A stretch of DNA of 64,000 nt from Liolophura sinensis (Eukaryota; Mollusca; Polyplacophora; Chitonida; Chitonidae), in assembly GCF_032854445.1 (NCBI RefSeq), contig NC_088301.1, forward strand, positions 51,323,187 to 51,387,186, written 5' to 3'. Each line of letters begins with the position of its first letter. Position 1 is the stretch's first letter. Made by a program: the position numbers and the translations under genes. This document shows positions 12,901 through 63,395 of this stretch, piece by piece. The notes under the pieces are model-generated. The model had not been told where the DNA came from. It saw only the letters and a program-made list of their open reading frames with translations, and searched no databases.

Positions 12901-15900
12901 CTTTGGAACCAGGCCTTTACTGTCTTTTTGACAATAACATGTATTAAGATAGGATATCGTAAAAAGTTCTCATGTTTTCTGTTCAGCATAAACTTCTACC
13001 TTACATAATGGAAGAGTATATGCCCACACATGTTTATAATGGGACTGAGTGTCTGTATATCAGAAGCATTTTATACTTTTTCTGTATTTCAGTTGACATA
13101 TTTTTTTGTTTATACAATTAATCATGTTCTATAAACAACAGTGGGAGCCTCCATGGCTGAGGTAGTTAGTGTGACAAGGCATTGCAATGATTGAGGAGCC
13201 TCTAACCAATGCTTCCTCTCCCACTGTACACAGAATCTCTGCTGGCAAGCTGTGGATGGTTGTGGGGTTCCACCGGGCCCTGCGCTGTTTCCTCTCTCAC
13301 CATAATTCTATCCACTGTCATAAAGGTGAAATATTCTTGAGTACGACATAAAACACAAATCAAATGAATAAATAAATAAATAAACATTGTTGTTGATGTT
13401 TCAGGGTTGGATGGCGCCACAGCTGGGACTGACAGGGAAAAGCTGATAAACCAGTTCAATGCGCCTGATAATGACAGAGTTTGGCTGTTCCTGCTGTCGA
13501 CCAGGTGGGGTTGATTTGTATTTAAACACAACATATTTACACTCTGCAATTAGAGTGAAACTTCTGTGAAACTATTTTGCAGTTTGAATGCCTTTGCCTT
13601 TTGCTAGGGAAGAACCAAGTAAGACATATAACATAAGGTTTTTCAGGTGTAAACTGCACAGTCCTCCTGTCTTTGACCTTGTAGAATATTAGTGAGCAGG
13701 TGTTTACAGCGAATGACAGGCACCACATGGATTAATACAGCCTAACAGCCTAACCTGGTTCATTGAAACATTAGAATGTTTCTTGTTTTTATAGAATAGT
13801 TCAATGCAAGTTGTGATTTATCATCTCTTCGTCAGTAGGAAATCTTCCACATGATGGAATTAGAGTTGATAAAAATTTTGCTCTTTTCTGCCTGTGTGAT
13901 TCTGAAAATTCCTCTGAATGTGGATTTAGTTTTTGGTGTCCACAATTCTTCATGACATATGTTTTCTGTTGTTGTGTAGAGCTGGCTCTTTAGGCATAAA
14001 TTTGATTGGAGCTAACCGAGTGGTTGTCATGGATGCATCATGGAACCCATGCCACGACTGCCAAGCTGTGTGTCGTGTGTATCGCTATGGGCAGCAGAAG
14101 AACTGTTATGTTTACCGCTTTGTGAGCGAGAACACATTGGAGAAAAAAATCTACGAACGACAGATTAATAAGCAAGGCATGTCTGGTGAGTACTGCTTAC
14201 TGTGTTTGCTTTGCTTCAAAGCAGTTAATCTCTCCTTCAGTGCAGAAGACAGTATAAATGTTATTTTTGGGACTTACGCATTATATGTTAGCTTTGTATC
14301 ATTTTATCTATATCAACAGCCTTTTGAGTAGGCGGGTTCCAGCTGGCTATGATGGTTAAAGCATCTGTGCTTCTAGTGTCAGAGCAGCTTTTGTTTTCTT
14401 TCAACTGCAATTTTAAATCCAGAGTTTTGCCAGATACCTGACGGAGGTTGGTGGTTTACTCAAGGTACTTTCCTGTCCTACACCCTTAAGCCTGACCACC
14501 TTCATATAAGTGAAATATTGTTAAATTCTGCATATTAAAATCAGTATAATGAATTAGTAAATTTTGTGTATGGAATAAATACAAATTTGTAATTAAGGTG
14601 TATGTTCAGAGTAATTTGCCATCTCTTGAAATTTGAGTCTTGAAACGAAGATTTTTTTTTTAGACCGAGTTGTGGATGAATTGAATCCAGAGAACAATTT
14701 CACCAGAGGACAAGTAGAATCTCTCCTTCATTATGAGGTACAAGAATTTATGTTGAAAAATTTTTGAGTTTACTCCCCAGCAGTTTTTCAGACCTTATAT
14801 ACACCTAAATTACAAGTGATATCATGGTATGGCATTTATCTCCATTACCAGAGTAGAATCCATTTGAAAACATGAAGTGAAATGACTTAAATTTATACAC
14901 ACTTTATTTGAAGTATTACTTTCTTTCTAATTACTTCCTTTCTCTCTAATATGTTAATGGGGTTTTATACCATATCAGGTTGCTTTATAAAATTTACTTA
15001 CTGACCCTTGACCATTTTACAGATTTCTTGAATAAGTAACAAATAAATAACATTGTTGAACAACAAAATGAGTAATTTAAATTTTTGATTACCTTTTAAC
15101 CCTGCTATTCAGGATTATGATGTTAGTATAGAATTTACTATTTATTTATTTTTTTTATATCCCAAAGGACAAAGATTTTCCTGCCCCAGATTTGTCCAAT
15201 GCTGATGAAATGTTTGATGATGATGTCCTTCTCCATACATTGAAGAAACACAACAACTGGGTTACACAGGTATGGAAACCCTAGATCAGTGAGAACAAAC
15301 TACTTGGCGAAGATCGGTAGTTTACTCTGAGCTGATTTTGCCAGCCATAAAGGAAATATAAATGAAACATCACTCAAAGAACAGAAATCTGTCACAATCT
15401 GATGTACTACTTTCTAGCTACAGATCAAAGATCTGTGTAGAGGTACATGTAGTTTTAAGTGTTGTAGTGCATGATATTGCTAGAAATAAGTAATAGCTTT
15501 TCTTTTAGGTCACTATAGTTACATACGTGCACTTTGAACTCTCAAAGATGGCAAAACGTACTAAGGATGACAGTGAATCTAGGTGCCGAGTGAGACATTC
15601 AAATACCAGCCTTCAGTAATTTGATATACATGTATCTACCATAGTTACCATAATTCTTCAACCTTTTCAACCGCTACTACAACCAACATTTCAAAACATT
15701 CTGACAAAACTGTGGCGTGTCGAGAAATAATTTTTAGCACCATTTTCATAGTAATTGTGTGCAAAAATTTCACTCAAAAAAATACTTTAGTGGCTGTAAA
15801 GGTTAAAGATTACAGGGTAGTTACCAGTAAGAGGTTTGAAGCGTATACAACTTCCTGTTCTCACTTCCTTAAATGATTTTTGTTGCTTGTGTATATGCAA

Positions 15901-18900
15901 GAAAAAGTAGGTATTAAAGTTACAAGCAAACTCTGACTGGGTTTTGGAGTATTTGGATGCACAAAGACAAATGCAAACAGCTACATTGAAAGGGGAAAAA
16001 TGTGGACAGCTATGATTGGATTTGAACTTTTACCTAATGGTTTTGACTGTGCTAACAATCCATGTCTGGGTTGATGAGCGGTCTCTTGACTTAGCCAGGC
16101 TCTTGTGTACTTTAGTACGCAATAAATAAGCTTACTTGTATCATAATAACAAGCATACAATTAATGAGAACTTGGCACTTCCTAAATTTGTACTGTAGCA
16201 CCTACATTGATCTTCATGAAGCATAATTTGTGTATGTATTGTTGGCTCATCTGGCAAAGAGTGTTTACCTGATGGTTTTCTCCACTCATATATCTAATGG
16301 TTGGAAAAATTCTGCAGTATGTTGTAAAACAGCAATAGAATAAAACCAATACATACATCAATGCTTTTCTAAGAAAGGCACTACCCTAATATCTCAACCA
16401 CTACCTTAATTCCTCAACCTTTCCTTTATGAAAGAGCAACTTGTGAAAGTACAATTTGTGTACATTTTTCATTCAGTTATGGACACAAAAGTACTTCGGT
16501 CAAATTGGCTAAATTTCAGGGTCTCACACAGAGGATAATTTTATCAGTGTGCACAGTATAATGCTTTCAGAATATGCTTGAATAAACACTTTGCAAACAC
16601 GAGAAAGGTTTGAAGAATTGCAATATCACACCTAAATGTATTGAATTAACTGAAATTTGTCCATTTTATGTGTACAAGTGCTTTCCTTTTATTCACATCA
16701 TCCTTTGTAAATTGATAGTGAAATATTATTGTGATTTTAACCCTAGATTTTCTCTTCTCCAGCTGCCATTCACCCATGAATCTCTGTTGATTGACAAGAA
16801 GGAACTGAGACTCTCCAAGCAGGAGAAGAGGCTGGCAAAACAAAGTTATGCTATGGAAAAGAAGCTGAATGTGTCCTACTCACGGCCTTCATATGCTGCT
16901 TATTACCCAAAATATGCACCAGGAGGGCGCTTCACTCCAAGAGGAGCAAGGTATTACATTTATTTGACATTTTTGTGCCAGCTAATTCCAAAAGTGATGT
17001 TCAAATTCTTTGTTATTGTAAGATCAAAGGCTGGTGAAGAAAATTATCCCTAAACTTAATGTGATATTTTATATATGAATTCTGTTTTGTGACGACCTGT
17101 TAATAGAATTGCAGCTGGACAGAATGTGCTTGTCATAAAAACTACTAAAGGTGTGTACATACGAACAAGTGACGGGAAGATTTTCGCTGTGAGATCTCGC
17201 GCAGATCAACAGAGCATTCAGAGTGAGATCTCAAACCAAACAACCTCTGTAAATTATTTATTTATTTATTTGATTGGTGTTTTACGCCGTACTCAAGAAT
17301 ATTTCACTTATACGACGGCGGTCAGCATTATGGTGGGTGGAAACCGGGCAGAGCCCAGGGGAAACCCACAACCATCCGCAGGTTGCTGCCAGACCTTCCC
17401 ACGTACGGCCGGAGAGGAAGCCTACATGAGCTGGACTTGAACTCACAACGACCACATTGGTGAGGGACTCCTGGGTCATTATGCTGCACTAGCACGCTAA
17501 CAAACTGAGCCGTTACATAAAATGTACTTCACGAAATATACTTCAGTATAACACCTCGGGTGTCATGTCTGGTAGCTTTAACATGGTGCTCCAAATTTCA
17601 CAAGACTGGGATCATCTTGTCCCCAGAATACACTGTAAAGAAGTAAGGAAGATGAGCTTAATGTTTACACAGAGCTCAAGTAATTGGTCTGCTTGTAAAC
17701 ATCTTGAATTTGTGATAAAAACTGAGGCATAATAACACTAGAATGCTGTGGCCATTTTATGTTGTGTGTTGATAAGGAGACATTTTTGGTGAAAAACATC
17801 CTACTGAGCCTTCACTGAATTATTTTTTGAGTTAACATGTGAATACGTAAATAATTTTTGTTGCTATGTGCTTCTTGTACCTGTCTCCAGCCCAAAACAT
17901 GGACGTCCCATTGCCAGTGTTAAGCCAATCATGTCCACTCCTGTACCAGTGCAGTCCCACCCTGTCCTTGGCCCAAGTGGTCAGTCCACTTTCCCATTGC
18001 AGCAGCTTGTCCGGCCAGGTGTGTCTGTTCACCAGGTCATTACAACCACAGGTAAGCTAAACAGCAACAGAAACAACTTAAACTTTCAAAATATCTGTTA
18101 TCACGCTCTATTATGCAATAGAAAGTCGTAATATGTACAGATATATTTTGACAAAATACATTTTTAAATTCAGTTATGTATTATTTATTTATTTGATTGG
18201 TGTTTACACCATACTCGAATATTTCACTTATACACTGACGGCCAGCATTATGGTGTGAGGAAACGGGCATCTGCAGGTTGCTGACAGCTTTGATGTATTA
18301 AGATATGACATTGGAGTAAGGAGGTCTAATGAAAAGCACAAATGTAGTATTTTGTCTTCTTTTTAGGCATGGGTAGTGAAGGTATAATTAAAAATTTTCC
18401 ATTCTTGTCTCTCATTTTCTGAGTAATACAGGAAATAAATCATTAACTATATGTCAAAGCCATGTCATTTATTGTTCCAGATATTGTTTTACCTGGGTCC
18501 AACACAGCCTCCAATGCACGACCTGTTAATAGAATTGCAGCTGGACAGAATGTGCTTGTCATAAAAACTACTAAAGGTGTGTACATACGAACAAGTGACG
18601 GGAAGATTTTCGCTGTGAGATCTCGCGCAGATCAACAGAGCATTCAGAGTGAGATCTCAAACCAAACAACCTCATCGAATATACATATGACCACTCCAAC
18701 TACAACAAGTAAGTTCATTGATGTGTTCGGTTGTAAATGTAGTAGATTCCATTTGTTGTAATAGATTAACAGTGGGAAAATATTTGTTGTAAGATTTCTG
18801 CTTCTGATGAGAAACTCATTGTTAAAAAAAAAAACTATTTTCGATACTGGAGTGATTTTCACCACTGATTGTTCAAGTGTATAACATCCACACTCTGTGC

Positions 18901-20265
18901 TATTTTCTTGTACTGTATGCCTGTTCCCTTTTGCTTTGTTTACTAACAGACAGTATGGCTGGAAATATCAACCCCCTGGTAGGCATGGCCAAGCAGGTTG
19001 AAAGAACTCTTCAGAAAAGAGGTGACCCTTCAGCATCAAAGAACTGTGATCTGTTGGCAAATATATATGCACAGACAAAGACAGTCAACAGTCTTCTAAA
19101 CAAACCCCTTGAGCCAGACAACACAGCTGAAACAAAGTCTAAAGAGACTCCAGTGAGCACTACACCCTCCATCCAGCTACAAAGGAGTGTCCCTAAAGTT
19201 GTACCCACTGTCACAGCAACTCTGAGTAACAAACTAGCAGGGGTAAAAACGTACAGGAAAGAACAGGAAAGTTCTCCAAAAACATCGACTTCAAGTTCTG
19301 CTCTAATAGACAGCCTGTTTGACTCTGAATCTGAGTCTGAATCTGAGTCTGTGGGTAAAACTCCAGGAGATGTTCAGTCGTTCGAAACAAACATGAACAC
19401 AAGCAAAAATTTTAAAATGGTGGCACCCTTCGAACCTAACGTATCAAAGGAAGCAGTTACCAATGGCAACCAGCTTTGGCCTTTGAAGTCTTTTGAAAGT
19501 GACTCTCAAGCTAGAGGTGGAACTGAGAATAATACAAGGGCAAATAATCAAATGGGTACTCACATTTCACAGCCGTCAACAACAATGATTAATAGTTATC
19601 CCATTAGGAGATTTGAGTCAGATTGGTCGTCTGGGTTGACTAGTTCACCATCTGATGTGTCGAGAGAGAGCCGTGACCTTGACTTTGATTCAAGGACAAT
19701 GGGAGATGTTGACAAAGTGTTGCGAGTGTCCCCGCAACGCCCAGCCAGCGATTTTCTCAGTGATAGTCAAGATTCTCAGTCAAGTGAACGAAGTCAGGAT
19801 CTGAGTTCATCGTCGTTCAACATGCCAAGTTTTGACTCCTTACAGAACTACAATTCATCACCTTACCCACCTATCACATCATCTGTTCCATACAACGTCC
19901 CATTAACTTCTTCCATGATGATGCCTAGTATACCAGACTTCTCTAGTTTCCCATCCATGTCCAATTACCCTGTCCAGCGAGGCTATGGCCAATACCCAAT
20001 CCCTAGCTACCCTTACCATATGTCCCACCCAATGCTTCTCCCTCAACCAAATATGGATGTCCCAAGTGACTACCTCCGGTACTCTCGACCAATTTCTCAG
20101 CACACGGTGAACATGGACACGTTGTCGGGGTCAAATGTGCTGAGCATGCCCCCATATCGTGGTTCTCCCATCACAGACATGCTGCCGATCCCACCATCTC
20201 GTCATAAATCGTCTGCATCGTCCACTGGTAATCTCCCTGTCTCTCAAGACAACTCCATGCTCTGA
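3578..20265 (+). CDS. RAD54L2: ARIP4/RAD54L2-like SNF2 family DNA translocase (21 coding exons)
   Basis: Coding exons by reading frame and splice sites: 3578-4112, 4571-4863, 5003-5181, 5588-5695, 6389-6687, 7175-7511, 8518-8685, 9157-9271, 9661-9888, 10405-10582, 11067-11261, 11733-11851, 12537-12640, 13405-13504, 13980-14185, 14664-14737, 15168-15269, 16763-16950, 17891-18051, 18481-18708, 18950-20265. All phases join except for one extra base at 4714-4720. Protein about 1743 residues; human ARIP4 is about 1470. An acidic N-terminal third is followed by a basic Lys-rich stretch, then the two-lobe ATPase at residues ~471-1065: Walker A in HSMGLGKT (~501), DEGH box (~655), [29 protein letters not shown] and CRVYRYGQ. 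The DEGH box and the [10 protein letters not shown] start are typical of the ATRX/ARIP4 branch, and the NPLKAF.VCCK segment points to ARIP4. The Ser/Pro-rich tail is in the last exon. Known for the family: a nuclear ATP-driven translocase that binds nuclear receptors and helps clear topoisomerase II-DNA complexes. An LRSLL motif near residue 333 fits an LxxLL receptor box but is unproven here. Confidence 0.94.
3923..3952 (+). repeat. GAT trinucleotide repeat coding for poly-Asp
   Basis: Ten GAT codons in a row in the first coding exon of the ARIP4 gene encode an Asp run inside a long acidic region. The other plus frames are also open across it and give poly-Met shadows. Confidence 0.9.
6098..6238 (+). 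mobile_element. tRNA-SINE family A, truncated, in an ARIP4 intron
   Basis: Only the 3' part is present: CAGCAACCTGCGG, CACCATAATGCTGG, TTCTTGAGTATGGTGTAAAA and an AAATAAA tail. Confidence 0.85.
6915..6990 (+). mobile_element. Fragment resembling SINE family B
   Basis: The piece TTGGTGGTTTACCTTTGCCT then TGGGCACTCC matches the middle of family B (compare 41765-42056). No tail is visible. Confidence 0.35.
13146..13384 (+). mobile_element. tRNA-SINE family A, near full length, beside an ARIP4 exon
   Basis: It begins with a tRNA-like head (GCCTCCATGGCTGAGGTAGT), runs through the family body with small deletions, and ends in (AAAT)n. The tail ends 20 bases before the exon starting at 13405. Confidence 0.9.
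14340..14545 (+). mobile_element. tRNA-SINE family B, old copy, in an ARIP4 intron
   Basis: It has an A-box-like start (AGCTGGCTATGATGGTTAAA), the GGTTGGTGGTTTACTCAAGG core and an ATAAGTGAAATATTGTTAAA tail. Confidence 0.6.
16230..16358 (+). mobile_element. Degenerate short tRNA-SINE
   Basis: A head-like GTTGGCTCATCTGGCAAAGA is followed closely by a family tail (TGCAGTATGTTGTAAAACAG, CAATAGAATAAA). Most of the body is missing. Confidence 0.45.
16490..16633 (+). repeat. Unassigned dispersed repeat, copy 1
   Basis: It shares AATTTCAGGGTCTCAC, ATAATTTTATC, AATGCTTTCAGAATATGCTT, GAATAAACACTTTGC and TTGAAGAATT with copies at 56566 and 63187, in the same order. It lies in an ARIP4 intron and has no coding potential. 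Confidence 0.75.
17092..17247 (+). pseudogene. Intronic duplicate of part of ARIP4 coding exon 20
   Basis: These 156 bases are identical, base for base, to 18518-18673 inside the exon 18481-18708. The copy lies in the intron between exons 16763-16950 and 17891-18051. Those two exons join in frame without it (AG + C), so it is not needed for the main protein. It carries a TAG at 17104-17106 that could act as an acceptor, and splicing there would keep the correct frame. Reading would then run into the adjoining SINE and stop near 17438, or leave at a weak GTAAAT donor at 17249. No other part of exon 20 was copied. Identity at third codon positions means it is very recent, conserved by conversion, or an assembly error. 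Confidence 0.85.
17249..17515 (-). mobile_element. tRNA-SINE family A, full length, abutting the duplicated ARIP4 exon piece
   Basis: All parts are present on the minus strand: tRNA-like head at the right end, body, and AAATAAATAAATAA tail at the left. The tail touches the end of the 156-base exon copy at 17247. The sequence is little decayed, so insertion is fairly recent. Confidence 0.93.
18181..18288 (-). mobile_element. tRNA-SINE family A, 3' part only
   Basis: Tail and part of the body on the minus strand (plus-strand reading TTATTTATTTGATTGGTGTT, then GGCCAGCATTATGGTG), with the head missing. Confidence 0.85.
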
Positions 20266-22810
20266 AGAAGTATATTCCTTGTCATCTTTCTTCAGTCGTA
20301 AATCTGCCCTGTATAACATTGGCATTGGTGTGTGTTCAAAACTTTTTCCCAGTCACAAGAATATTTATTTTGGAATACCTGGAAAGTCCTGTGTGAATGT
20401 GTTTTTAGTTAACAAAAGTCCATGCGTAGTACTTCTCCCTGGCCTGTTTATAAAAGGTGTAAAAAACTACTGCCAAGCAGTGAACTCCCCAAAACAACCC
20501 TATCCATTTCTGTATACGTGTCGATTCATTAATTTCTGTCACTCACGATTGAGCTAATGTTGAGATGAATTGTGTATCATCCCATGTAGTGATATGAAGC
20601 AGCCCTTTGATTTTTTTATCTTCATTTTTTAGTTATATCTTACTCAGAAATGAGAAACTTTACCTTGTATCAAAACAAAATGCTGGTTTGCATCATTCCA
20701 TGGAGAATTCTGGAATGGTACTTTTGTTTAATGGCAAAGTTTGCTTTGTCAGATATTTGCATGATCTTGTCAGTTGGCAACACCCATTAGGCGTAGAGTT
20801 CATCAAAGTGGCAGTGGCTGGTTAATTAAGTTGAATCATGTCATGTTAATAGTTTAGGCACATATGAAAGATCAAGTAGATGTAACTCTACGTGCAAACA
20901 ATGATTCTTTATGGTAGAAAAGATCAAGCCAGATGTCCTAAAGATTAGAAAAGTAGTACTGTCTTTTGAACATGTTGGGAGGTTGTTCATTGTGAATGGT
21001 AAAATGAAGAGTACATGTTAAATCAGGATAAACTGGATTATGATGAGTGAAATCATAAAAACACTTGTGTGAGCTAAGACATCGAATACACATATTATCA
21101 TTTCAAAATGAAAGGGAGTAAGGAGTAACATTTATATGTAGTTTGTTATAAATTCGTGTCATGCCTGCAGTCAACTTTCATATGTCATCTATTAAGTAAA
21201 AACAACTTCTTTAGGCTGGTACATGTATATCTTTTTTCAAGGTACCAGTACTGTACATAAACTATGTTAAATGCATATATCTTCAGAATAGTGATGGCAT
21301 TAATAGTTTCTGTAGGGGGCTTGATTGCAGATAAAAAGATTTTCTCACATTTCATTATATCACTAGGTTCATTGTGTGTCAAAGCTTTTAGATGCGTACA
21401 TTAACTTGTTCTCAGGAGTGCTTTATTAATTTATTTAACATGTGGTTGATCTTACATAAATTGCACAATTTGGATAGGTGATATAATTATAAACTGCTTA
21501 TCTGTATGTTTATTCTTTTAAAAAATGTTTACATGTGTATGCTTGTTGATGAGAATTTTGATGTGCCATTTTCTCATTTTTCTGTGTTTCATGTATTATA
21601 TTGATATGAAACTAGCTGTACTTATGTACATCACGTTAGGATCAGTTATTAATTTGATTAACAATTCACAATGATTTCAAATCATTCTGACCATATGGGA
21701 GCTTAACAGGAATCTGGCAACTTTTTATATTAAGTTATTACTCGTTAATAAGAAATATGAAGAATCAAATAACATACTTTTTTTTTTTTGCTAGGTATTT
21801 ATTTTTACTATGGTAACACTTCTGTTATTGTGAGGATAGATGCTGCATGAAACCTGGTGACAACTTAGTTTTGCCATTTTGGCAATATGACAAAGGTATA
21901 CACCAGGTGTTTACTGTCAGCTGTTACAGGTACATGTGATCTCAGTGTTTCTGCCCGAATAAAACTATTTCATGACAAGATTTGATGAAAGAATTCATAT
22001 ATCTGACAACTTTAGTTCCTGTAATCTTGAGTCTACAGGCACGTCAGCTGTGTGAAGCAATTTCAGTATTGGAGAAGGTAGCAGGCTTGATAATTATAGG
22101 AGTCCTATTTAACCATTGTGCTTGTTTATTTTTTGTGCCATTTTATTTGTGTTGTGTTTTTCTAAAATTTTGATTGTGTGTTCTTGTTGGAAACCTGAAG
22201 CTTAAAGGATGTCAGTAGCACATCTAAAATCTTTTTCTTTCTCGTTTTTGTTTAATAATATCTGATATTAAAATTTAACATTGGACTGTTATCTGACACA
22301 TGCAAAGGTTTTTAGAAACCCACATCTAAACAGTACATACATGCTTCATTATACAGTGTTTTAACTGTCCTGCATTTTGGCATAGGCAGACCTTGGGGGT
22401 AAACATAAGGTTTGTACATGTAGATCCCTAGACATACTGGGTATTGCATTGTGATGAAAATATGTTATTGATACGTATGGTATTGGTCATTATGTAAATT
22501 TGTTAAAGCAAGATTAGCCCCCAAGTTCATCCAGTTTGCTTAAATACTTGTTTTAGGCTCTTGGTTTTACTGCTTGTAAATTGCTGAGATGTATATTTAT
22601 TGTGTGATACATAATGTGTAGTATGATTTACACTGTTATTATGAGAAATTCTTTATCCATTGTAGTTTAACCCCCATTGTAGCTAGGTCAAAACAGATAT
22701 GTCCAATTTGTCTTTTGTACATGTAAAATGGTTTTAGCTTTATGCTAAAATCATCTGTGTTGTTTCAGTACAAGTACACCATTGTATATTAAACTAAATA
22801 AATACATGCA
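20266..22810 (+). other. Probable 3' UTR of the ARIP4 gene
   Basis: After the TGA at 20263-20265 no further coding exon is seen. AATAAA signals occur at 21958-21963 and 22797-22802, so the transcript may end near either. The stretch is AT-rich and holds no recognisable gene or SINE. Confidence 0.5.
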
Positions 22811-38329: not shown

Positions 38330-38850
38330 TGCCGGATGTTACTATATTTGGTACCTCGTTCCCAAAATGCTGTTCGGCCAGCAGCATGCGCAGTTCTACT
38401 TCCGACCGTCTACGCACATTTCCATTCATTTCTCCTTCTGACTCCTACGTCTCACCTATCCTCTTTCTTTCACACCTTCCACACACACCCATCATACACT
38501 CACACTGACACACTGTTAGGGTTATTCTATACTGCTTTGATCTTATTTGATCAGGCATTAGCCTGAAATGATGAGAAAATCTGAACGGAGCAGATAGTTG
38601 TTACGTCTGCTGTGACTACGGTACGTTGGAAATGATGTCTTGAACGGATATACTAAAATTCGGAACAGAGCTCGCATTCTTTATGTTTGAAGCACTGTTC
38701 TTAGAATTTAGTGAGTTAGGACTGTTAAAACTGATCCAACATTGTAGTAAACTTGTAGCCATGTGAAGCCTCCTTGTTTTTGGCAGTCTCTTAAAAAATC
38801 TTGATAACCGCCAAAGCGGTACTAATACTATAATAGTTAAAAGAGTTGCT
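38330..38850. other. Upstream flank of Rap1, no gene recognised
   Basis: Just above the Rap1 promoter the sequence is less AT-rich to about 38500 (short CpG-containing stretches), then AT-rich. A short plus-strand open frame at 38336-38566 has no recognisable domain and is not called. Confidence 0.4.
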
Positions 38851-38854
38851 ATTT

Positions 38855-39096
38855 CAGGAGTCTCTCGAGTTCACACAGGTTGATAAGACTGGATTGGGGC
38901 TCTCGCGAAAGAATGCGGCTAAAATGGGTAGAGTTAAGGCAGTTAACAGCAGTGTTGGGCCAACAGACCTGGCTATTTGAAACGTGTATTCAGTCAAGCA
39001 AGTAGCATAAATATTTCACCTTTTAGCTCATTAGTTCGTGAGAGCCCCAGCCTGTCTCATCCATATCTGTGTGAACTCACGGGACTCCTGAAACGC
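38855..39096. mobile_element. Fold-back inverted repeat, possible MITE
   Basis: The left arm (38855 on, TTTCAGGAGTCTCTCGAGTT...) pairs with the right arm ending near 39095 (...GGGACTCCTGAAA). Matching blocks such as GAGTTCACACAG and GGGGCTCTC occur in both, over about 58 clear bases and perhaps 80 in all. The spacer of roughly 100 bases holds no gene. Non-autonomous DNA transposons often look like this; no target duplication was clear. Confidence 0.65.
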
Positions 39097-39586
39097 CAAC
39101 TTGAATTATTGCTCTGGAGCCACTTTCATAAAACTGCGTAAGGCATATTTCTTGTAAGCTTTTGCCGAGAAAGACATTTGGCTTATAGTGCCATAAAGTG
39201 ATGTCATTTGCGAGAAAAGTTACGAAAAATTGATTTGTGAAAGTGATTCCTGTTGAGCCAAGGATGGCCGCAAACCAAGAGACTTTATTTGAAACACTGA
39301 TGCAGTTGGCATGGCAGTTAGCATTTGAGACAAAAATTATGGATCCAACATGTCTCCACCGTCTTAAGTTTTTCGACACTTATTTTCCTTCATCTTTTCA
39401 TCTGTATATTGTTGCAAGCACAGTGACTATCGTTCATTCCTCAGGCTGTGTGTGCACAAGATTCCTCAGTGATGCTTATAGCAATTCACACTACTGATAG
39501 CCTTGACATATTGAAGAGTGACCATTCTTCTGGGAAAAGGTGAATCTTTCGTTTTGAATTCAGGGAAATATTGATATATAACTATA

Positions 39587-40845
39587 CACAAGGAAAAAAG
39601 TTAAGCACCCCCTGCTAAGATCAATTATTAAAAATCCCCATTAATTTCAACTGTAATGCCAGTGGTGATGATGACAAGAATGATGTACGGTTGTGGTCAT
39701 TCATGTTTGACAGTAACGTAAGAACTTAGTGTTCTGCGACGAGAAAATTTTTTTCGTGCAATAAAGCAAAATTCAGTATGCTTGCCCTTCAAATTTTTGT
39801 ACTCAAGGTTGGTGTTGTGCAATGCGGACCAATCTTCTGTGATGTATATTAGAGGAGCACAGATGGCAAGTTATCCGTATGCACTCCGCTTGGTTGTCGT
39901 TCAAAGCTATCGGGCGTCAATTGGGCTACCATTATACAGTGATAAGTCGATTGGTCAGCCATTGGCATTAAGTTCATGTGTGAAGCGACAGCGGCTACCC
40001 AACAGACGTCTGTCCACAAGACCTGTGTGAAACGGCTTGAAAGCCGCAGGGCTTTGGGCAAGGAGAGTCATCAAAAGCCCCATATCGTCAGATTGTCATC
40101 AATGGATACGTTTGGCATGGTGTTTAGAACGACAAGGGTGAAATTTGAGGACCTAACGTAGAATCCATTGATCGGACAAATGTCGGTTCTTGCTCAATGT
40201 TACAGATGGACAAATGAGGGTTTGGAGGCACAAGAACACAGCATACCCATATGTTCCTTATGGAGGTGGGTTCTGTAATGGTTTGGGGGTGCATCTCGCA
40301 TGACTGAAAACTGGACTTGGTCACTGTACGAGGTAACCTCACAGGAGTGGCAACTGTTGCATCCTTATGGCAGATCCGATGTCTCACTGGAGGGATGAGA
40401 CGCAGATTGGAAGCTGTCATCCGGACTAATGGGGGCTATACGCACTATTAACCTTTGGCTCTAGGGATGTGTTCTACACACTCAAAGTGACATTTTAACT
40501 TAAACATTTACGACCTATGAAGCAAATTGACATTTTACTTAAACATTTATGCCCCATGAAGCAAACTGACATTTTACTTAAACATTTACGCCCTATGAAA
40601 CCAGATGAACTTGGAAGTTCAGTACTTACAAGCCATGTTTATTTTGTGAAGAATACACTTTTGATTTGGATATCCTGAATAAATTGTAAAGTCTAATGTC
40701 ATTTATGGTATTTTCTTATTGACTGAAGGTTGCACTTTTTGATCACAATCCTTGCTGTGATATCAGTTTGCCAGTAATCTCCCAACCCCAATGATTTTAT
40801 TGTCAGTGTGGGCTTTCCAGGGGCTGCTGAACTTTTTTCTTTGTG
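39587..40845 (+). mobile_element. Dead Tc1-like DNA transposon with inverted ends and TA flanks
   Basis: The left end reads CACAAGGAAAAAAGTTAAGC and the right end, on the other strand, CACAAAGAAAAAAGTTCAGC; both are flanked by TA, the Tc1/mariner target. Length is 1259 bases. The interior between about 39950 and 40430 holds broken transposase: fragments such as TDGQMRVWRHKN, PYVPYGGG, VMVWGCISHD and KLDLVTVRGNLTG match the central and C-terminal catalytic region of Tc1-like enzymes but sit in different frames with stops. It cannot encode an active protein. Confidence 0.88.
40483..40605 (+). repeat. Tandem repeat of about 40 bases, three copies
   Basis: Units built on GACATTTTACTTAAACATTT followed by a variable ACGCCC/ATGCCC-TATGAAGCAAA part repeat three times inside the 3' part of the Tc1-like element, with a few substitutions between units. 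Confidence 0.85.
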
Positions 40846-45583: not shown

Positions 45584-45851
45584 ATTTATTTATTTATTTG
45601 ATTGGTGTTTTACGGCGTACTCAAGAATATTTCACTTATACGACGGCAACCAGCATTATGGTGGGAGTAAAACAGGCACAGCTCGGGGGAAACCTACGAC
45701 CATTCGCAGGTTGCTGGCAGATCTTCCCACTTACGACCGGAGAGGAAGCCAGCATGAACTGGACTTGAACTCAAAGTGACAGCATTTGTGAGAGACTCCT
45801 GGGTCATTACGCTGTGCTAACGCACTAACCAACTGTGCCACGGAGGCCCCG
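45584..45851 (-). mobile_element. tRNA-SINE family A, full length
   Basis: Minus-strand copy from the tRNA-like head (right end; GGGGCCTCCGTGGCACAGTT on the minus strand) to the AAATAAATAAAT tail at 45584. It is one of the two best preserved copies here and a good template for the family consensus. Confidence 0.95.
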
Positions 45852-47682: not shown

Positions 47683-50600
47683 TTAGCAGCTACTGAAATC
47701 CCACAGTTTGACAGTTTTGTCATATGATCCAGACACAATAAGAAAGTCATTAAACTGCAGGCAGGTCACTCCATCAGTGTGGTTTCGTAGCGTCACCAAT
47801 CTCTGGCCAGTCTCCAGATTCCACACCTGAAATCAGAATGACACAAATCAGGACTTGCAAGGACTAACTGAATGCAAGGCTTGTATCAACCTCTAAGAGT
47901 TCTTTTGTTCAGATACAAAAATGTGTGAAAGTGATGAAACACGATGAATTTACACCGTCCCAATCATTGCAACTGATGGAAGATTCATTTATGATAGACA
48001 AAATATATCAATACGCCATATGCATGTACGAACACAACTAATTCATTTCAATATTTCTTTTGACACATATTTTGCAGATATTTCACTAATTTACAAACCT
48101 TTTCACACACAAGAAGAATAAGGTCACAAAACAAAATGGAAAGACTAGAATTTTCTGAGAATACCATATTTGCATTTGTGTTAACTGGCAAACTTTATGC
48201 CATCATTTGTAATCCCCAGAAAGGACTTTACCTTGGGTATTATGGTTTCAGCTGTGCAGGATGGAAAGGCAAATAATTTGATTATCATATCCTCACACAT
48301 ACATGCCTTGAGGGTTGAAAAATAAAAAAAAAAGTCATGACATGCAGTTTAAGAAATTTCGTCATCATAAAAATCTGAAACTTACCTTTAGTGTCTTGTC
48401 ATCAGCTGCACTGACAAGCCTCCAGCTGTCTGCTTGAAGGCATCTGCAGAAGATAAAAAACAAGAAATAAACTTTTCATACCTAAATAGCATGTATCATA
48501 TGTTTATATGGTTATGGCGGAGCAATATCACAACAGCTTCTTCGTCTAGGATTCCTTTTAACAAATATGGGAGATAAACAATCTTTTTCCATCATACAAG
48601 AAAACCCTGCCATATTTAATAAACTTTGAATACCCAGTTACTTCCTCTTCAGTCATATCAATAATAACATTACTTCTCAGTAAGGGAATTTTCAATATTT
48701 ACATCCTTCTATTATTCTCTGGGTGCCTTCTTCATATAGTTTTACATGAAATTGATTGGAGACCACTTGCCTGACCAATATGAGGGTATATGCTACCTGT
48801 GCAATCTAGTTACAATGGCAACCATGCAAGGGCTCAACACACAGTAACCTCTTAAAACTGGGGTTTTGCATGTGCTGGGAAACCAAATCATACCTATTTA
48901 TATAGTAGTAGATATAAGGAAATAGTAAACTGGTTATCTTTTTATCTTTTTATTTATTTGATTGGTGTTTTATGCCATACTCAAGAAAATTTCACTTATA
49001 AGACAGCAGCCAGCACTATGGTTTGAGGAAACTGGGCAGGCACCAGTGGAAACTCTCGACCATCCACAGGTTGCTGGAAGGCCTTCCCTTGAATGGCTAG
49101 AGAGGAAGCCAGCAAGAGCTGGACTAGAGTTCATAGCAACCGCAGTGTGAGAGTTGCCGAAGCCAGGTATATCTATGTCTAAACAAAAAATTAAATGAGT
49201 TAATGGAAAATAATATAGTCTCTAGAGATATAGCCTAATGGCGATCGAATAAAACTTCTTTATTACAGATATGAACAACCATGAAATAAATAATTTAAAC
49301 TCCATACCTGACAACACCAGTGTGACCTTCTGCTGCCTTCCAGTCTATAGTGTTAATACAGTGGCCAGTGTGGATGTCCCAAAATTTGAGGTTGCAATCA
49401 AGGGAACCACTAACAATGCGAGTGGAATCAAACTGCAAACATGTCACTGCATCCTGATGCCCTGTCAATGTCATCATGCACTGACCAGCAAAATTCCAAA
49501 CCTGTAAAAGGTAAAACACTTGTTAAATGAACTATATCAGGTAAATATTATTTAGACGTCAACATCATGATGAAATCTTAACTCTTGGTCATCATACCCC
49601 ACAACTGTGTTTTGTAACGATGCAAGTCAAAGGCATTTAGATGGTTATTCTGAGTTATTCTTATGTGAAGCATTTATTACTTTAAAGCATTGTTCAAAAT
49701 ACTTTACCTTTATGGTTTTGTCACATGACCCGGAGACGATCTTAGTCTCATTAAAATGTATACACAAGACTGCTGCTTGATGACCCCTGTAAAGAGAAGA
49801 TCAAATCACATTTTTATAACTCAAATTCATTTTAACGGTTTCACAAAATATGCTAAAAAGTATCAGAAAATGTAATTATACATAACTGATACGTTCTATA
49901 CTTTTACCAGCAAAATCCTTATCTCAGTCTGATCCTACTACAAAACACTACTTATCAGGGTGTGTAGTACTCATAAAAATAGCTGCATGTTAAAAGTTTT
50001 AATGTCTTTCTCACCTGAGCGATAATTTACATACACCTGTCCTCATGTCCCAGATTTTTAAAGTTTTGTCATAGGACCCACTGATGACTTTATCATCATC
50101 AACCTAAAAACAATAAAGAAAAACCATACATTCACAAGCCACGCCTCTGATTTTGAAATCAAGTTTTATTTTCTGTATTCTGCTTAATAAAGAAAACTTG
50201 CTGGATGTGCAGATGAGGTTTGTACCGATAGATGGTACTTGACCATATTTGTCTTAGCTGATAAAATAAAGACACGTCTGGCTTCAACTATGACTTTTCA
50301 TGCAGGTAAAACTGAAATAAGATGTTTACAGACATCTATTTAATTTACCTGCAAGCATCTAACAGTGTCTGTATGACCGATCATGGTAACTTTGCAAGCA
50401 ATACTTGACCAACTGTCACGAGTAGACAAATCCCACACCTGTAATAAAGCATAAGAAAATTTTAAGAACTATCTGATATATTTATGTATTCCATTGGTGT
50501 TTTATGCCGTACTCACTTATATATTTCACTTATACGATGGCAGCCAGCATTATGGTGGGAGGAAACCAGGCTTTGGAGGAACCCAAGACCATCTGCAGGT

Positions 50601-53600: not shown

Positions 53601-56600
53601 GGTTGACATAAAAGGACAGAATAAACGGGTTACCCTTCGGAATCCCTTTACACGCTACATTTAAGTAGTATTAATTCGCAAGATGAAGGTTTCCTGCTAA
53701 ATCCTTGCTATAATGTGAATACTAAAATAGTGGATCTGATACTAAAAATGGACTTGCATAAAAATAAAAAACCAATTCAGACTATGGATTTTATTTTCTT
53801 CTGTGTGTTGCGTATTTTACACTTCTTCGGCGTACGGTTGTACATGTATTTTTTACGTTTGGTGGACAAAATATGCCAAAATCATACAAGTAGGCAGGTC
53901 TGTAATGGGCGCTTTCAACAGTAGCCTTCTATCCCCTGGGACAGATAGGGAATGAGTTTAACAAAAGTAAATGTAATCAAGAACTGAAAGTTTAGGTTGA
54001 ATAGCAACACTTGCCTTGTGTATGACCTTCAAATGTTCGAACTGTACATCTCCCCTTCAACCAATTATTACGAAGGCGAAACCGCTCTGCAAACACGAGC
54101 TTCCACTGTAATGTACAAATAACATGTATCAAAAAAGTATGAAAATGTATTCCGGCATTAAGGAAAGTTCAGTGTTTCTTATGGCATTTTTAGTGATAGA
54201 AGCATATTTAAAACACTGACAATGCACTGTAGATCATCATGTATATACCCACAGTTAACTGTTTACACGTACCCTAAATAACCTAAAATTTCTTCCATGA
54301 CTAAGTTGCCCATTTTCCAGATTTTGGGAGTTCTATTGATTTTAAAAATTTCTCCGGTATTTCCGGTATCTTTTAGGAAAATGTAAATTTTAGCACCAGA
54401 AGTAATATCTCATCACTAACTATTCACAAACCTGGATGGATCCTTCAGGTGACATGTGACTAATGACTTGCTTGTGTTCTGCTGCCTTTGACAGTCGCCA
54501 CTTCGGTTGAAAACAGAATCGTCGCCAAAGAGATAACTCTCCTCCCAATTTTTTCCAATCCAGGCACACCTGAGAGGCTTGACAAAGGCTGACTGGAAGA
54601 TTCCAAGACACAACTTGTACTAATACAGTACCATTCAGATAAAACTTCACAAAACTAGGATTGAGGGAGTTAAGAACTACATGTAATTGTGAAATTAGAG
54701 ATGTCTATAAAAGCTATCCATCCATCAAAAACCGTATAATAAGTATAAATACATGTTACTACCAGTTCGTGTACTTCTGTATCTGTAGGTTTTATTCAGA
54801 ACCCAAGATTATTTTGCACGCTTTATCATTTGTGAGAATAAAGCTAATCCCCTATATATATGATTCTGACAAATATTTCAGCTTCATATACATGTAAAAC
54901 TTCATATACATGTACTATTACACACTGTCTACAGTATGGATATACAGTCAGGTAACAGATTACTCAGAAGTAATACATGCGCTGGGTTCAGTTTATTCAT
55001 TTATTTATGCCTACTTCATGTTGTAATCAAGAATATACATGTACATCTGTTACCTGAGAAACGAAATCACATGTAATGCTTTATCTCCCCTACTACCAAT
55101 GTGACGACAAGAAGGTTTACTGGGGGAGATACATGTACCTGTGAATGTCAAGTGTTCGTGACAAACTGGGAGAAACTCAGATATCACCTTCACTAGGGAG
55201 GTTGCAGGCTGAATGCAACTGCAACATTGATTATCTTGCTAAATAAGACATATTTTGACAGAACAGACAGACCAAAAGGGGAACTCTATTAACCAAATTA
55301 ACCGAAGTCTGTAGAAGTAAATAAAGATAATACAGAAACTGATAATGCAAGAGACAACAAATCACCTGGGTCAAGATACGAAAATACTTTTGTGGCTAAA
55401 TTATCAGGTAACCAGGTGATAATATCCTGGCAATTGGGTGGACAGCCTCGATGTAAGTTAGCCTCCATCTTCACAGAAAGTAGGTGGAACTGTGGCAAGC
55501 TGCAGTCCATCTATAAACATAAATAAATGAACATGTTTTCCATGTACAGGTTTTGATGTTATACATAAAGAACTACAATGTAACAGGTAGACTTACAAAA
55601 GTTGTCAAATTCATTTGTGAAATGCATGACACATGTACATTGTTAAATGCAGTAAAATTATGTGTGCTGGAAAAATGTGCACAGAGACAGAACTAAAATA
55701 ACAACTGACAACTGACAAACATTAAAATATTCATTTACAGCCTACATGGATAAGGAAACGTTATAAGTTGATCACAGCGTACCACCAATACTGCCAGTAT
55801 TTAGTTAGTTTTATTTAGTTGGGGTAGTATTTGTTCCATAAACCAAAAACTGACAGAAGTGTGGAAAAGTACATAAATAAGTACATGTAGGATTGTCATC
55901 ACTACCACCTTATTCAAGGAGTGAATGCACCAGTTTGTCTGTGCCAAAGTACGTATAAACTTGATCTTATGAGCAGGAAATTAAACTACTTTCAGTCCAT
56001 AGTATATGCCTAAGAATGGCACTGAAATATTAGCCTTGAAAATTCATCTTACAATCAGGTTTAACTGTTATGTGGAGGCAGATAGGCTGTCGATCAACCA
56101 ACTACTTCTATTTATCTAGCTGAAAAGTTTCCATATCAAACCAAAATTTGTTACTGGTATGCAGTTACTTGAACATAAAGCACATGGGAGAAAAACTGAA
56201 TCTCCTCCATTCATATTTTATACAAAACAATGAATGTATACAATTAGTAGATCTTAGAAGTAGTATAATCAAAATCAAAATCAAAACTAGGTATTCCTGC
56301 GCATTTACCTTGCTACATATAACAACTTTAAATTATTATATAGGAATTTTTATCACACTTAAACTTCCCTGTACGATTTGTATTCACATTCTGGCTGCAA
56401 AAGAAGCTAAAATACATGTACAAGTAGTTCTTATATTCTCACACTTTACCCCGTTAATACTAACAATACTCAAACTTAACATAAATCATTATAATCTCAA
56501 TCGACCTAATATACTGCTAGCTTGAAAACTCATGTGTATAGCCTAATACATCAACCTTTTTGCAGATGAAAAAGCAGCTTTCAGGGCAATTTATGCAGAT

Positions 56601-58787
56601 TTATTAAACAAAACTACATTGGTTGGATTGGCCAAATTTAGGGTTTCACAAAAAATGTATAATTTTATCACAGGATAATGCCTTCAGAACATGCTTGAAT
56701 AAACGCCTTGGAGACAGGTGAAAATGTTGAAGAACTACAGTACCGATGGCTAAGCACAATTACATGCAAACCACATGTATTTTAATTCATCACCATGGAT
56801 AAAATTTTTTGATTTAGTCCTCTATTTTCTTATAGCAACAAAAGCAGGGCATGCATCAATGCGAGTGAGAGTGGAAAATGAACAAGATTTTTCTTACCAA
56901 AAGACGTTTCAGGACTATATTCTTTTGCTCATCATCAAATTCTGAAAACCATTTTACTATGGCCTGCAAATACAATAAGCAGTTTGGATCTGTACTTGAC
57001 ATTCTACTACTTGTACATACACATGTACTAAATGTATATTACACAATCATAGCCGAACAATGTAAAATAAACCAAATTATGAATATTGATCAGTATATGT
57101 TCTGCACAGTAAAGCACATACAAAATACCTAGTAGGCATGTTTACTACAGTATACATTTTAATTTTAGGTGAATATTTTAATCTAAACTAAATTAAATTG
57201 TAAACTCCAGTTCAGCATTACAGCTAGAATTTATATGTATTCATTTGATTGGTGTTTCATGTCGTACTCAGGAATAACTGACTTATACGACAGCGGCCAA
57301 CATTATGGTGGAACGAAAACCCACGACCATCCGCAGGTTGCTGCTGCCTTCGGCAGGAGAGGAAGCCAGCAGGAGCTGGACTTGAACTTGCAGCGAACGC
57401 ACTGGACGCTTGAAAAAGAACATGAAAGACTAAAGGCTATATATTTGTACACAAAAGATAAGGTGGAAACTGTTTCCTCCTGAGGAGAGAAATAAATTTA
57501 GGTGTTACGTTTTACATTGCCAATAAATCATTGATTTGTTTGATTGTTTAATGTCTCACTTGAGAATTTTCCACATATATAGCAGTCAGTTTTATGGACA
57601 AAGGAAGAAGACCAACCTTTCAGAATTTCCCACATCTGACTTACTCACCACATTTGTGTAAGATAAGTGGTTTTTAATGAAAGTAAGCGTGCGCAAATGG
57701 CCACTTGTTTGTAGTAGATTGCTTATTATCACAAAGGTCTCACCGAAAATGACAGCAGAATCCATACATTTCCTATCCAAGGCAGGAAATAAACTTGCAT
57801 CTTGTGTGTCCTAGTGACATAAAATTGAGTCCATGTATACACATATATGAAACTTACCCCAAACCTGTCCTTGAACATGTATGGGCTAATCCCTTCTTTG
57901 AGAAAAACACTATCCTGAGAGGTATCTTCATCTCCATCCAAAGACCCCGTTCTATTTGCTGCCACTGAGACCACTGCATCATTGTCAATTTTATCAATAA
58001 GGTCTGAGAATGCTGTGCCTAGGGGGTAATGAGAATGGTAAGGTCTGCTGGCTGGATGTGGGTGGTTATCATCCATTGGCAAATAACTACTACTTTCACT
58101 TTCAGGACGATCGAAAGTGAAAGTAGGGCAAGATGCTGTCGCAGCAACAATTTCAACTGGATCGGATGTCATTTCTTCATCACTATCACTTGAGTAGTCA
58201 CTTCGACGATACTTATACCTATTATCTGAAGGCCTGTTATAGTGCGTCCAGGACTGGATTGGTGTTGGACTTGTGCAACTGGCACTATGATCACTACATG
58301 AGCTACTGAAGGGCAAGCTACTGACAGAGATTGTTGTGTTCAGGTGAACACTCCGGTGGTGTGAACAGTTTCGAGAGGGCATAGAAAGTCTGTCAGGGCA
58401 TGCACAACAGGCAGGGCAATGACAGTTTGGTTTGTGGTCCATACTACCTTGTAAAGGTAGGGACACTGTCCTTGAGCGGGCATGACGCGTAGGACTAGCC
58501 AGATTGAAGTCCTGTGGATCCAGACGCATGGATGCATCAAGCCGACTAGTACTAAGGCAGGGACTGGTTGACTGTTGACGACTTGGACGTGGCTTTGTCC
58601 CAGATTTGGCTACTGGGACAGTGGCATAGGACTCCTCTGGCATATTTCTCACCATTCTGAATGAACCACCGTTACTAAGACAACAACATCTTGATGACGA
58701 CGAATAAACTGCAGTCACAGTTGGCTTTCTATGGCCTGGCAAACTCCCAGTACCACTGTCTAGGATGCCAGATGATGACTTGGCCAT
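47683..58787 (-). CDS. F-box and seven-WD40-repeat protein, probable SCF substrate receptor (13 coding exons)
   Basis: Exons in transcript order: 58787-57858, 56963-56898, 55510-55340, 54569-54432, 54105-54015, 52640-52576, 52220-52095, 50438-50349, 50103-50015, 49786-49708, 49501-49308, 48443-48386, 47826-47683. Total 2241 bases, 746 residues, with consistent phases. ATG 58787 is chosen because an in-frame TAG lies just upstream. Residues 1-310 are Ser-rich and low complexity, with a Cys cluster (CHCPACCACPDR). Residues ~311-355 resemble the dimerisation segment that precedes the F-box in beta-TrCP and Cdc4. The F-box is at ~363-400 (WLPDNLATKVFSYLDPGDLL). Seven WD40 blades follow at ~458-746, each with GH and a SGS-D-K/R-T-K-V-W type end. 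Known role of the class: the F-box binds Skp1 and the propeller binds phosphorylated substrate for ubiquitination. It is nearest to Cdc4/FBXW7/Met30 types, but the F-box differs enough that I assign no ortholog. Confidence 0.92.
48948..49160 (-). mobile_element. tRNA-SINE family A in an F-box gene intron
   Basis: Tail and body on the minus strand (plus-strand GATTGGTGTTTTATGCCATA at the left), with moderate decay and a lost head end. Confidence 0.9.
50477..50692 (-). mobile_element. tRNA-SINE family A in an F-box gene intron
   Basis: Body and head on the minus strand (plus-strand CATTGGTGTTTTATGCCGTA at the left, CAGCCACTGAGGA at the right), with internal deletions. Confidence 0.88.
51145..51405 (-). 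mobile_element. tRNA-SINE family C in an F-box gene intron
   Basis: On the minus strand it begins with a tRNA-like head (AGCCCTGATGGCTCAGTTCG), which is a clear A-box region, then a body ending in blocks that match 30515-30640. Its body is unlike families A and B. Confidence 0.65.
56566..56745 (+). repeat. Unassigned dispersed repeat, copy 2
   Basis: It holds GCAGCTTTCAGGGCAATTTA, AAAACTACATTGGTTGGATT, ATAATTTTATC and ATGCCTTCAGAACATGCTTG, then GTTGAAGAACTACAG. It lies antisense in an F-box gene intron. Confidence 0.8.
57236..57408 (-). mobile_element. tRNA-SINE family A in the first F-box gene intron
   Basis: Minus-strand copy with tail end (TTGATTGGTGTTTCATGTCG), a shortened body, and the B-box region (GAGCTGGACTTGAACTTGCA on the plus strand). 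The outer head is lost. Confidence 0.88.
57530..57625 (-). mobile_element. Very old SINE tail, family A or B
   Basis: TTTGATTGTTTAATGTCTCA and CTTGAGAATTTTCCACATAT resemble the shared SINE tail read on the minus strand, but the match is weak. Confidence 0.3.
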
Positions 58788-63019: not shown

Positions 63020-63181
63020 ACACTCCGGCCGTAAGTGGGAAGGTCTGACAGCAACCTGCGGATGGTCGTGGGTTTCCCCCGGGCTGTGCCTGGTTTCCAC
63101 CCACCATAATGCTGGCTGCCGTAGTATAAGTGAAATATTCTTGAGTACTGCGTAAAACAGCAATCAAATAAATAAATAAAT
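63020..63181 (+). mobile_element. tRNA-SINE family A, 3' two thirds
   Basis: Body (CCGGCCGTAAGTGGGAAGGT on) and an intact tail ending in (AAAT)n at 63181, well preserved but 5' truncated. The unassigned 200-base repeat starts within a few bases of its tail. Confidence 0.92.
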
Positions 63182-63186
63182 CTTTT

Positions 63187-63395
63187 CACATATTAAAGAG
63201 CAACTTTCAGAGCACTTTATGCACATTTTCAATTTGATTTTGGTGACAAAACTACATTGCTTGGCTTGGCCAGTTTCAGGGCTTTGTAAAAAGTATAATT
63301 TTATCCCTCAACACAAAACAATGCCTTCAAAACATGCTTGAATAAAAACTTTGCGAACATGCGAAATGGTTGAAGAATTACAGCAACCTAGTTTT
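63187..63395 (+). repeat. Unassigned dispersed repeat, copy 3
   Basis: The longest copy: GAGCAACTTTCAGAGCACTT, AAAACTACATTGCTTGGCTT, ATAATTTTATCC, ATGCCTTCAAAACATGCTTG, then GTTGAAGAATTACAG. It follows a SINE tail directly. Confidence 0.8.

Follow-up and report, generated by a model that had tools for sequence, protein, structure and literature searches.

The genome of the chiton Liolophura sinensis carries, in an intron of a gene of the SNF2 type, a perfect 156-nt copy of the inside of a coding exon that lies farther downstream in the same gene. We put at roughly 65% the probability that this copy is a young, DNA-templated proximal duplication that arose from the repair of a break beside the tail of a SINE, and a recent repair-patch duplication, which is a known kind of event, is thus the likeliest account of the locus. 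The preliminary description of this DNA had proposed a young duplication made during SINE insertion or repair, an emerging alternative exon, or an assembly artefact; of these, the young duplication is supported and its origin in repair fits best, whereas SINE insertion fits badly and the alternative exon has little in its favour. The features discussed below are collected in Table 1, with coordinates that refer to the window, that is, the whole stretch of 64,000 nucleotides that was analysed.

Table 1. Coordinates of the repeat, the neighbouring exons and the SINEs within the window
Feature	Position	Strand	Basis and remarks
E1, coding exon	16763..16950	+	Phase 2 at its end (..GCA AG/GTATTA); inferred from the open frame together with a CAG acceptor and a GT donor
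Copy of the inside of E3, in the E1-E2 intron	17092..17247	+	156/156 against 18518-18673
Spacer of 8 nt between copy and SINE tail, TGTAAATT	17248..17255	.	Sequence; filler or original intron
SINE, read as tRNA-derived, (TTTA)n tail toward the copy, head slightly truncated	17256..17512	-	BLAST and alignment of 10 copies
E2, coding exon between copy and source	17891..18051	+	Inferred from frame and splice sites
Partial SINE in the E2-E3 intron, same family and orientation as the SINE at 17256	18179..18283	-	86% over 93 nt
E3, source exon, 228 nt	18481..18708	+	Inferred from frame and splice sites
Segment of E3 that served as donor (source)	18518..18673	+	156/156 identity
E4	from 18950	+	Inferred from frame and splice motifs

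An exact and isolated repeat

The copy and its source agree at every one of their 156 positions, as the preliminary description had observed, and the identity cannot be extended by a single base to the left or to the right. When the 64-kb window was compared with itself by BLAST, the pair obtained E = 3.45e-76, a value that rules out chance similarity, and no other match at E <= 1e-3 overlapped either the copy or exon E3. The abrupt end of identity at 156 nt likewise rules out that the copy is part of a larger duplication. A search of the window for exact repeats of at least 20 nt, direct or inverted, in which low-complexity words and words starting in 14 SINE intervals were left out, returned only this pair and one of 22 nt, the latter lying inside a tandem array at 40483-40599. 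The array is made up of three 39-bp units with 89% matches. Some distance from it, the segments 38844-38924 and 39021-39101, each about 80 nt long, are inverted repeats that are 77% alike and separated by 96 nt; together they are possibly a decayed inverted-repeat element.

Copy and source stand in direct orientation on the same strand, 1,426 bp apart from start to start and with 1,270 bp between them, and the identity extends to all six CpG sites in the copy, each of them intact. The earlier characterization of the segment as exactly 52 codons is right as to length, which is divisible by three, but not as to whole codons, since the first nucleotide of the segment is the third of its codon; the multiple of three is a coincidence of length with a one-in-three chance.

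Gene and exon context

Exons E1, E2 and E3 join in a single open frame, the exon context as a whole resting on reading frame and splice motifs. Three open reading frame pieces upstream match SNF2-rel_dom or Helicase_C, and ATRX is the closest solved relative of one open reading frame piece; the gene is that of an SNF2-type ATPase, and, in line with the preliminary description, we take it to be ARIP4 (RAD54L2), a chromatin-remodelling gene. Among the matches listed in a literature search there was nothing useful on this gene in molluscs. The copied part of E3 begins 37 nt past the acceptor and stops 35 nt before the donor of the exon, and neither splice site was therefore copied. What was duplicated is hence not a whole exon with its splice sites, as it would be in a tandem exon duplication or a mutually exclusive exon.

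A match in the PDB between the exon and a designed beta-trefoil (E 8.9e-7; three repeats, 9-10.5 bits) was judged spurious. Words and peptides of the exon were also compared with viral contigs only, where one search gave no match and another gave 37 pattern matches, none of which was confirmed.

The adjacent SINE and the age of the copy

Homology to the neighbouring SINE begins at 17254-17256, 6-8 nt past the end of the copy, and not within two bases of it as had been described. Nor is this SINE of full length, as had also been claimed: its head stops near 17512 and is without some 11 nt or more that are present in the copy of the family at 45584. By BLAST the element matches 13 other places, which brings its family to 14 in the window, and these dispersed copies, together with the simple-repeat (TTTA)n tail, are what is expected of a tRNA-derived SINE. 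The head may be tRNA-like, to judge from an A-box pattern, and ARAGORN called no tRNA in the element. A word from the head matches one other copy with three mismatches; its exact hit at the SINE beside the copy holds by construction, since the word was taken from that very element. A SINE word found no match in viral or prokaryote contigs. String searches of the literature gave no name for the SINE; on the wider subject of such elements, the reference list of PMC10294476 cites a MetaSINE paper.

A random point would fall 0-8 nt outside one of the approximately 12 SINE tails with a probability of about 0.0017, a measure that was chosen after the fact. The partial SINE of Table 1 precedes the source segment by about 235 nt. 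The window also holds a second dispersed repeat family, with copies about 72-75% alike at 16427-16622, 56545-56740 and 63191-63382; one of them ends about 140 nt upstream of E1, and near 63181-63191 the family directly adjoins a SINE.

With no difference in 156 positions, the divergence between copy and source lies below 1.9% (95% upper bound), and the claim that the duplication is very young is thereby supported, unless gene conversion, which can conceal age, has kept the two alike. The age of the SINE relative to the copy is less readily ordered. Measured against 12 other copies in the window, the SINE carries 10 private changes in 260 columns, as compared with 0 in 156 for the copy (Fisher p = 0.0085), and 10 in 228 if only non-CpG columns are counted (p = 0.005); dropping two or three columns at the edge of the head, entered as 8/258 and 7/256, gives p = 0.022 and 0.035. 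In a stricter, three-copy comparison the SINE shows 3 private changes in 161 positions against 0 in 156, and p rises to 0.13, so that a SINE older than the copy can be regarded as only suggestive.

Joins and target-site duplications

Seen by eye, the copy is flanked by TTTTGTG on its left and by TGTAAATT on its right. There is no microhomology (0 nt) at either join, no poly(A/T) tract of at least 5 nt at the ends of the copy and, around the copy alone, no target-site duplication of at least 5 bp that the eye can discern. A non-templated tract of 10-40 A is also absent from its 3' end, where the copy is followed directly by the spacer and then by the SINE tail. In the search for a source of filler, no word of more than 10 nt from the junction flanks was found to recur in 15001-20500.

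Target-site duplications were sought for nine SINEs and compared with shuffled flanks. The two elements closest in sequence to the SINE beside the copy, at 1576 and 63023, have duplications against their tails, of 11/12 nt (shuffle p 0.02) and 9/9 nt (p 0.06) respectively; a near match of 9/10 nt was obtained for the SINE at 50476 (p 0.16), and the remaining five of the eight other SINEs yielded no clear target-site duplication (p 0.36 to 0.91). For the SINE at 17256 itself none was found, whether the copy was retained (p 0.70) or excised (p 0.79), as if the flank on the side of the tail had been lost. This is a weak indication of such a loss, since five of the six further SINEs also show no clear duplication.

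Origin of the copy

The claim that the copy was made during repair is, we infer, the one that names the best-fitting mechanism. The chromosome would have broken, or a repair would have stalled, in the intron by the AT-rich tail of a SINE whose insertion was probably the earlier event. DNA synthesis would then have extended one of the ends by 156 nt, with the interior of E3, about 1.4 kb downstream, as its template, and the extended end would have been joined to the other. This would have left in the intron a fragment of the exon in direct orientation, on the same strand and devoid of splice sites. A DNA template taken from the neighbourhood would yield the direct orientation at once. The missing microhomology is the main misfit of this reading, and the 8-nt spacer could be filler. 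A homologous template switch through the partial SINE at 18179-18283 is not favoured: to judge from the positions, synthesis from that element would copy the sequence to its left, and E3 lies to its right.

It is unlikely that the repeat is an artefact of assembly, in which gap filling, haplotype merging or a chimeric read inserted the segment into an intron that in reality lacks it. Such an origin would accord with the perfect identity and with a length of 156 nt that may be considered near that of a short read. Mis-joining through overlaps, however, should leave bases shared at the joins, and none is shared on either side; no gap is marked in the window, since it contains A, C, G and T only and no N; and no second repeat of this kind was found in the 64 kb. 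The blunt joins argue against mis-joining by overlap, not against a chimeric molecule.

An origin as a by-product of SINE or LINE retrotransposition, either through a reverse transcriptase that switched from the SINE RNA to a host transcript or through insertion of a transcript fragment alone, is improbable. The end of the copy does lie 6-8 nt from the SINE tail, and the three-copy comparison of ages does not establish a greater age for the SINE. Tail and flank are, moreover, A/T-rich, like the TTTT/A sites at which LINE-1 nicks, as these are described in PMC5110952. The arrangement of the locus nonetheless speaks against either route. A switch during first-strand synthesis would place the foreign piece at the head of the SINE, whereas the copy stands at its tail. 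In target-primed insertion of a SINE on the minus strand, the first cDNA is the plus strand and grows rightward from the tail; extension of that primer strand on a sense RNA would thus yield the reverse complement, and the copy is in sense. Nor is there a poly(A) tract, a target-site duplication with the copy in or out, or an exon junction within the copy. The claim of an origin during SINE insertion therefore fits badly with a copy that is antisense to the SINE and found on the side of its tail.

That the copy is an emerging alternative exon, spliced between E1 and E2 or between E1 and E3 and adding a second copy of the segment to the protein, is highly improbable. The TAG at 17104-17106 does continue the frame of E1 exactly; as had been stated, splicing to it from the preceding exon would keep the frame. 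A strong cryptic donor (AAG/GTGTGT, score 5.37) is present at 17151 inside the copy, and 24 acceptor-donor pairs are open into E3 with E2 skipped. Against this, the acceptor at 17106 scores -3.57, as compared with 2.64 to 6.47 for four inferred real acceptors, the splice sites of the source were not copied, and of the 346 acceptor-donor pairs that share 30 nt or more with the copy only 2 are open into E2. The proposal of an emerging exon hence finds little support in so weak an acceptor and so few open pairs. The best acceptor in the scanned stretch is at 17204, with a score of -0.21.

These scores were computed with a general weight matrix, one not trained on the host genome, and the matrix is crude, as seen in the value of only -1.04 that it assigns to the E1 donor. 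The other two inferred real donors score 4.55 and 7.80, and the cryptic donor at 17151 outscores two of the three. Since 17151 falls within the identical stretch, the same AAG/GTGTGT donor is also found in E3, where it might be an internal alternative splice site.

Equally remote is an older duplication whose identity with the exon gene conversion has maintained. Conversion between direct repeats at a distance of 1.3 kb is possible in general, but here the identity breaks off abruptly at either end, without a margin of partial divergence, and a young origin is simpler.

Consequences and significance

The copy is most likely a neutral passenger of the intron. The locus may be a fragile point, since recombination is possible between the two direct repeats, identical over 156 bp, and would be predicted to remove E2 along with the first part of E3 and the E3 acceptor. 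A more general possibility, which we consider very unlikely, is that SINE tails in this invertebrate lineage are recurrent break sites that capture nearby exon pieces by DNA-templated repair, and that introns would in this way be seeded, at a steady pace, with intact pieces of coding sequence as potential later exons.

The locus is a clean and apparently very recent intragenic copy of an exon fragment within an intron, with boundaries that can still be read. It thus offers a concrete place at which to test both repair-templated duplication outside the vertebrates and the attraction of such events to SINE tails. It is, at the same time, one event, likely a passenger, that alters no established view, and we make no claim to a first report.

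Comparison with known systems

Templated insertions attributed to Polymerase theta are usually much shorter than the copy described here. Those reported in C. elegans (PMC8654963) resemble it as joins in an invertebrate germline that contain pieces copied from nearby; in the description given there, unlike here, the insertions map to break-flanking sequence at the junctions of deletions. The class 2 templated sequence insertion polymorphisms described by Onozawa and Aplan (2016, PMC5110952) are similar in being patches of breaks with no target-site duplication and no poly(A). Their templates, according to that account, are distant and thought to be RNA, whereas the donor in the chiton belongs to the same gene, at a distance of 1.4 kb, and the strand is that of a DNA template. 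A limited literature search gave no report of such duplications in molluscs or similar animals among the matches listed.

A close parallel is provided by the repair-mediated proximal duplications of Pace et al. (2009, PMC2671141), with inserts of at least 50 bp and a donor within 5 kb. In size and distance the chiton copy falls within these bounds, with 156 bp and 1,426 bp from start to start. The cases given in that paper are vertebrate, and by design of the search their acceptor interrupts a transposable element, whereas the copy described here lies beside one. Microhomology (2-9 nt) at a join is found in 31 of the 39 proximal cases and filler in the other 8 (counted from Table 1, PMC2671141), and in its lack of microhomology our copy is thus unlike most of them. 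Target-site duplications are present in 6 of the 39 by a count from the same table, and their lack in the chiton does not, for that reason, single out repair.

In other respects the chiton copy agrees with the published series (PMC2671141): it is a short insert with a donor within 5 kb and no poly(A/T) tract, such tracts being recorded in 0 of the 39 proximal cases inspected there; its acceptor is intronic, as are 295 acceptors in that study; and partial as well as full exons are reported among the donors. For human proximal duplications the paper gives a mean length of 162 bp, a median of 147 bp and an average separation of 1.2 kb, with 753 of 1,136 human duplicons less than 3 kb apart (PMC2671141), and the chiton copy, in both its length and its distance from the donor, lies in the middle of this range.
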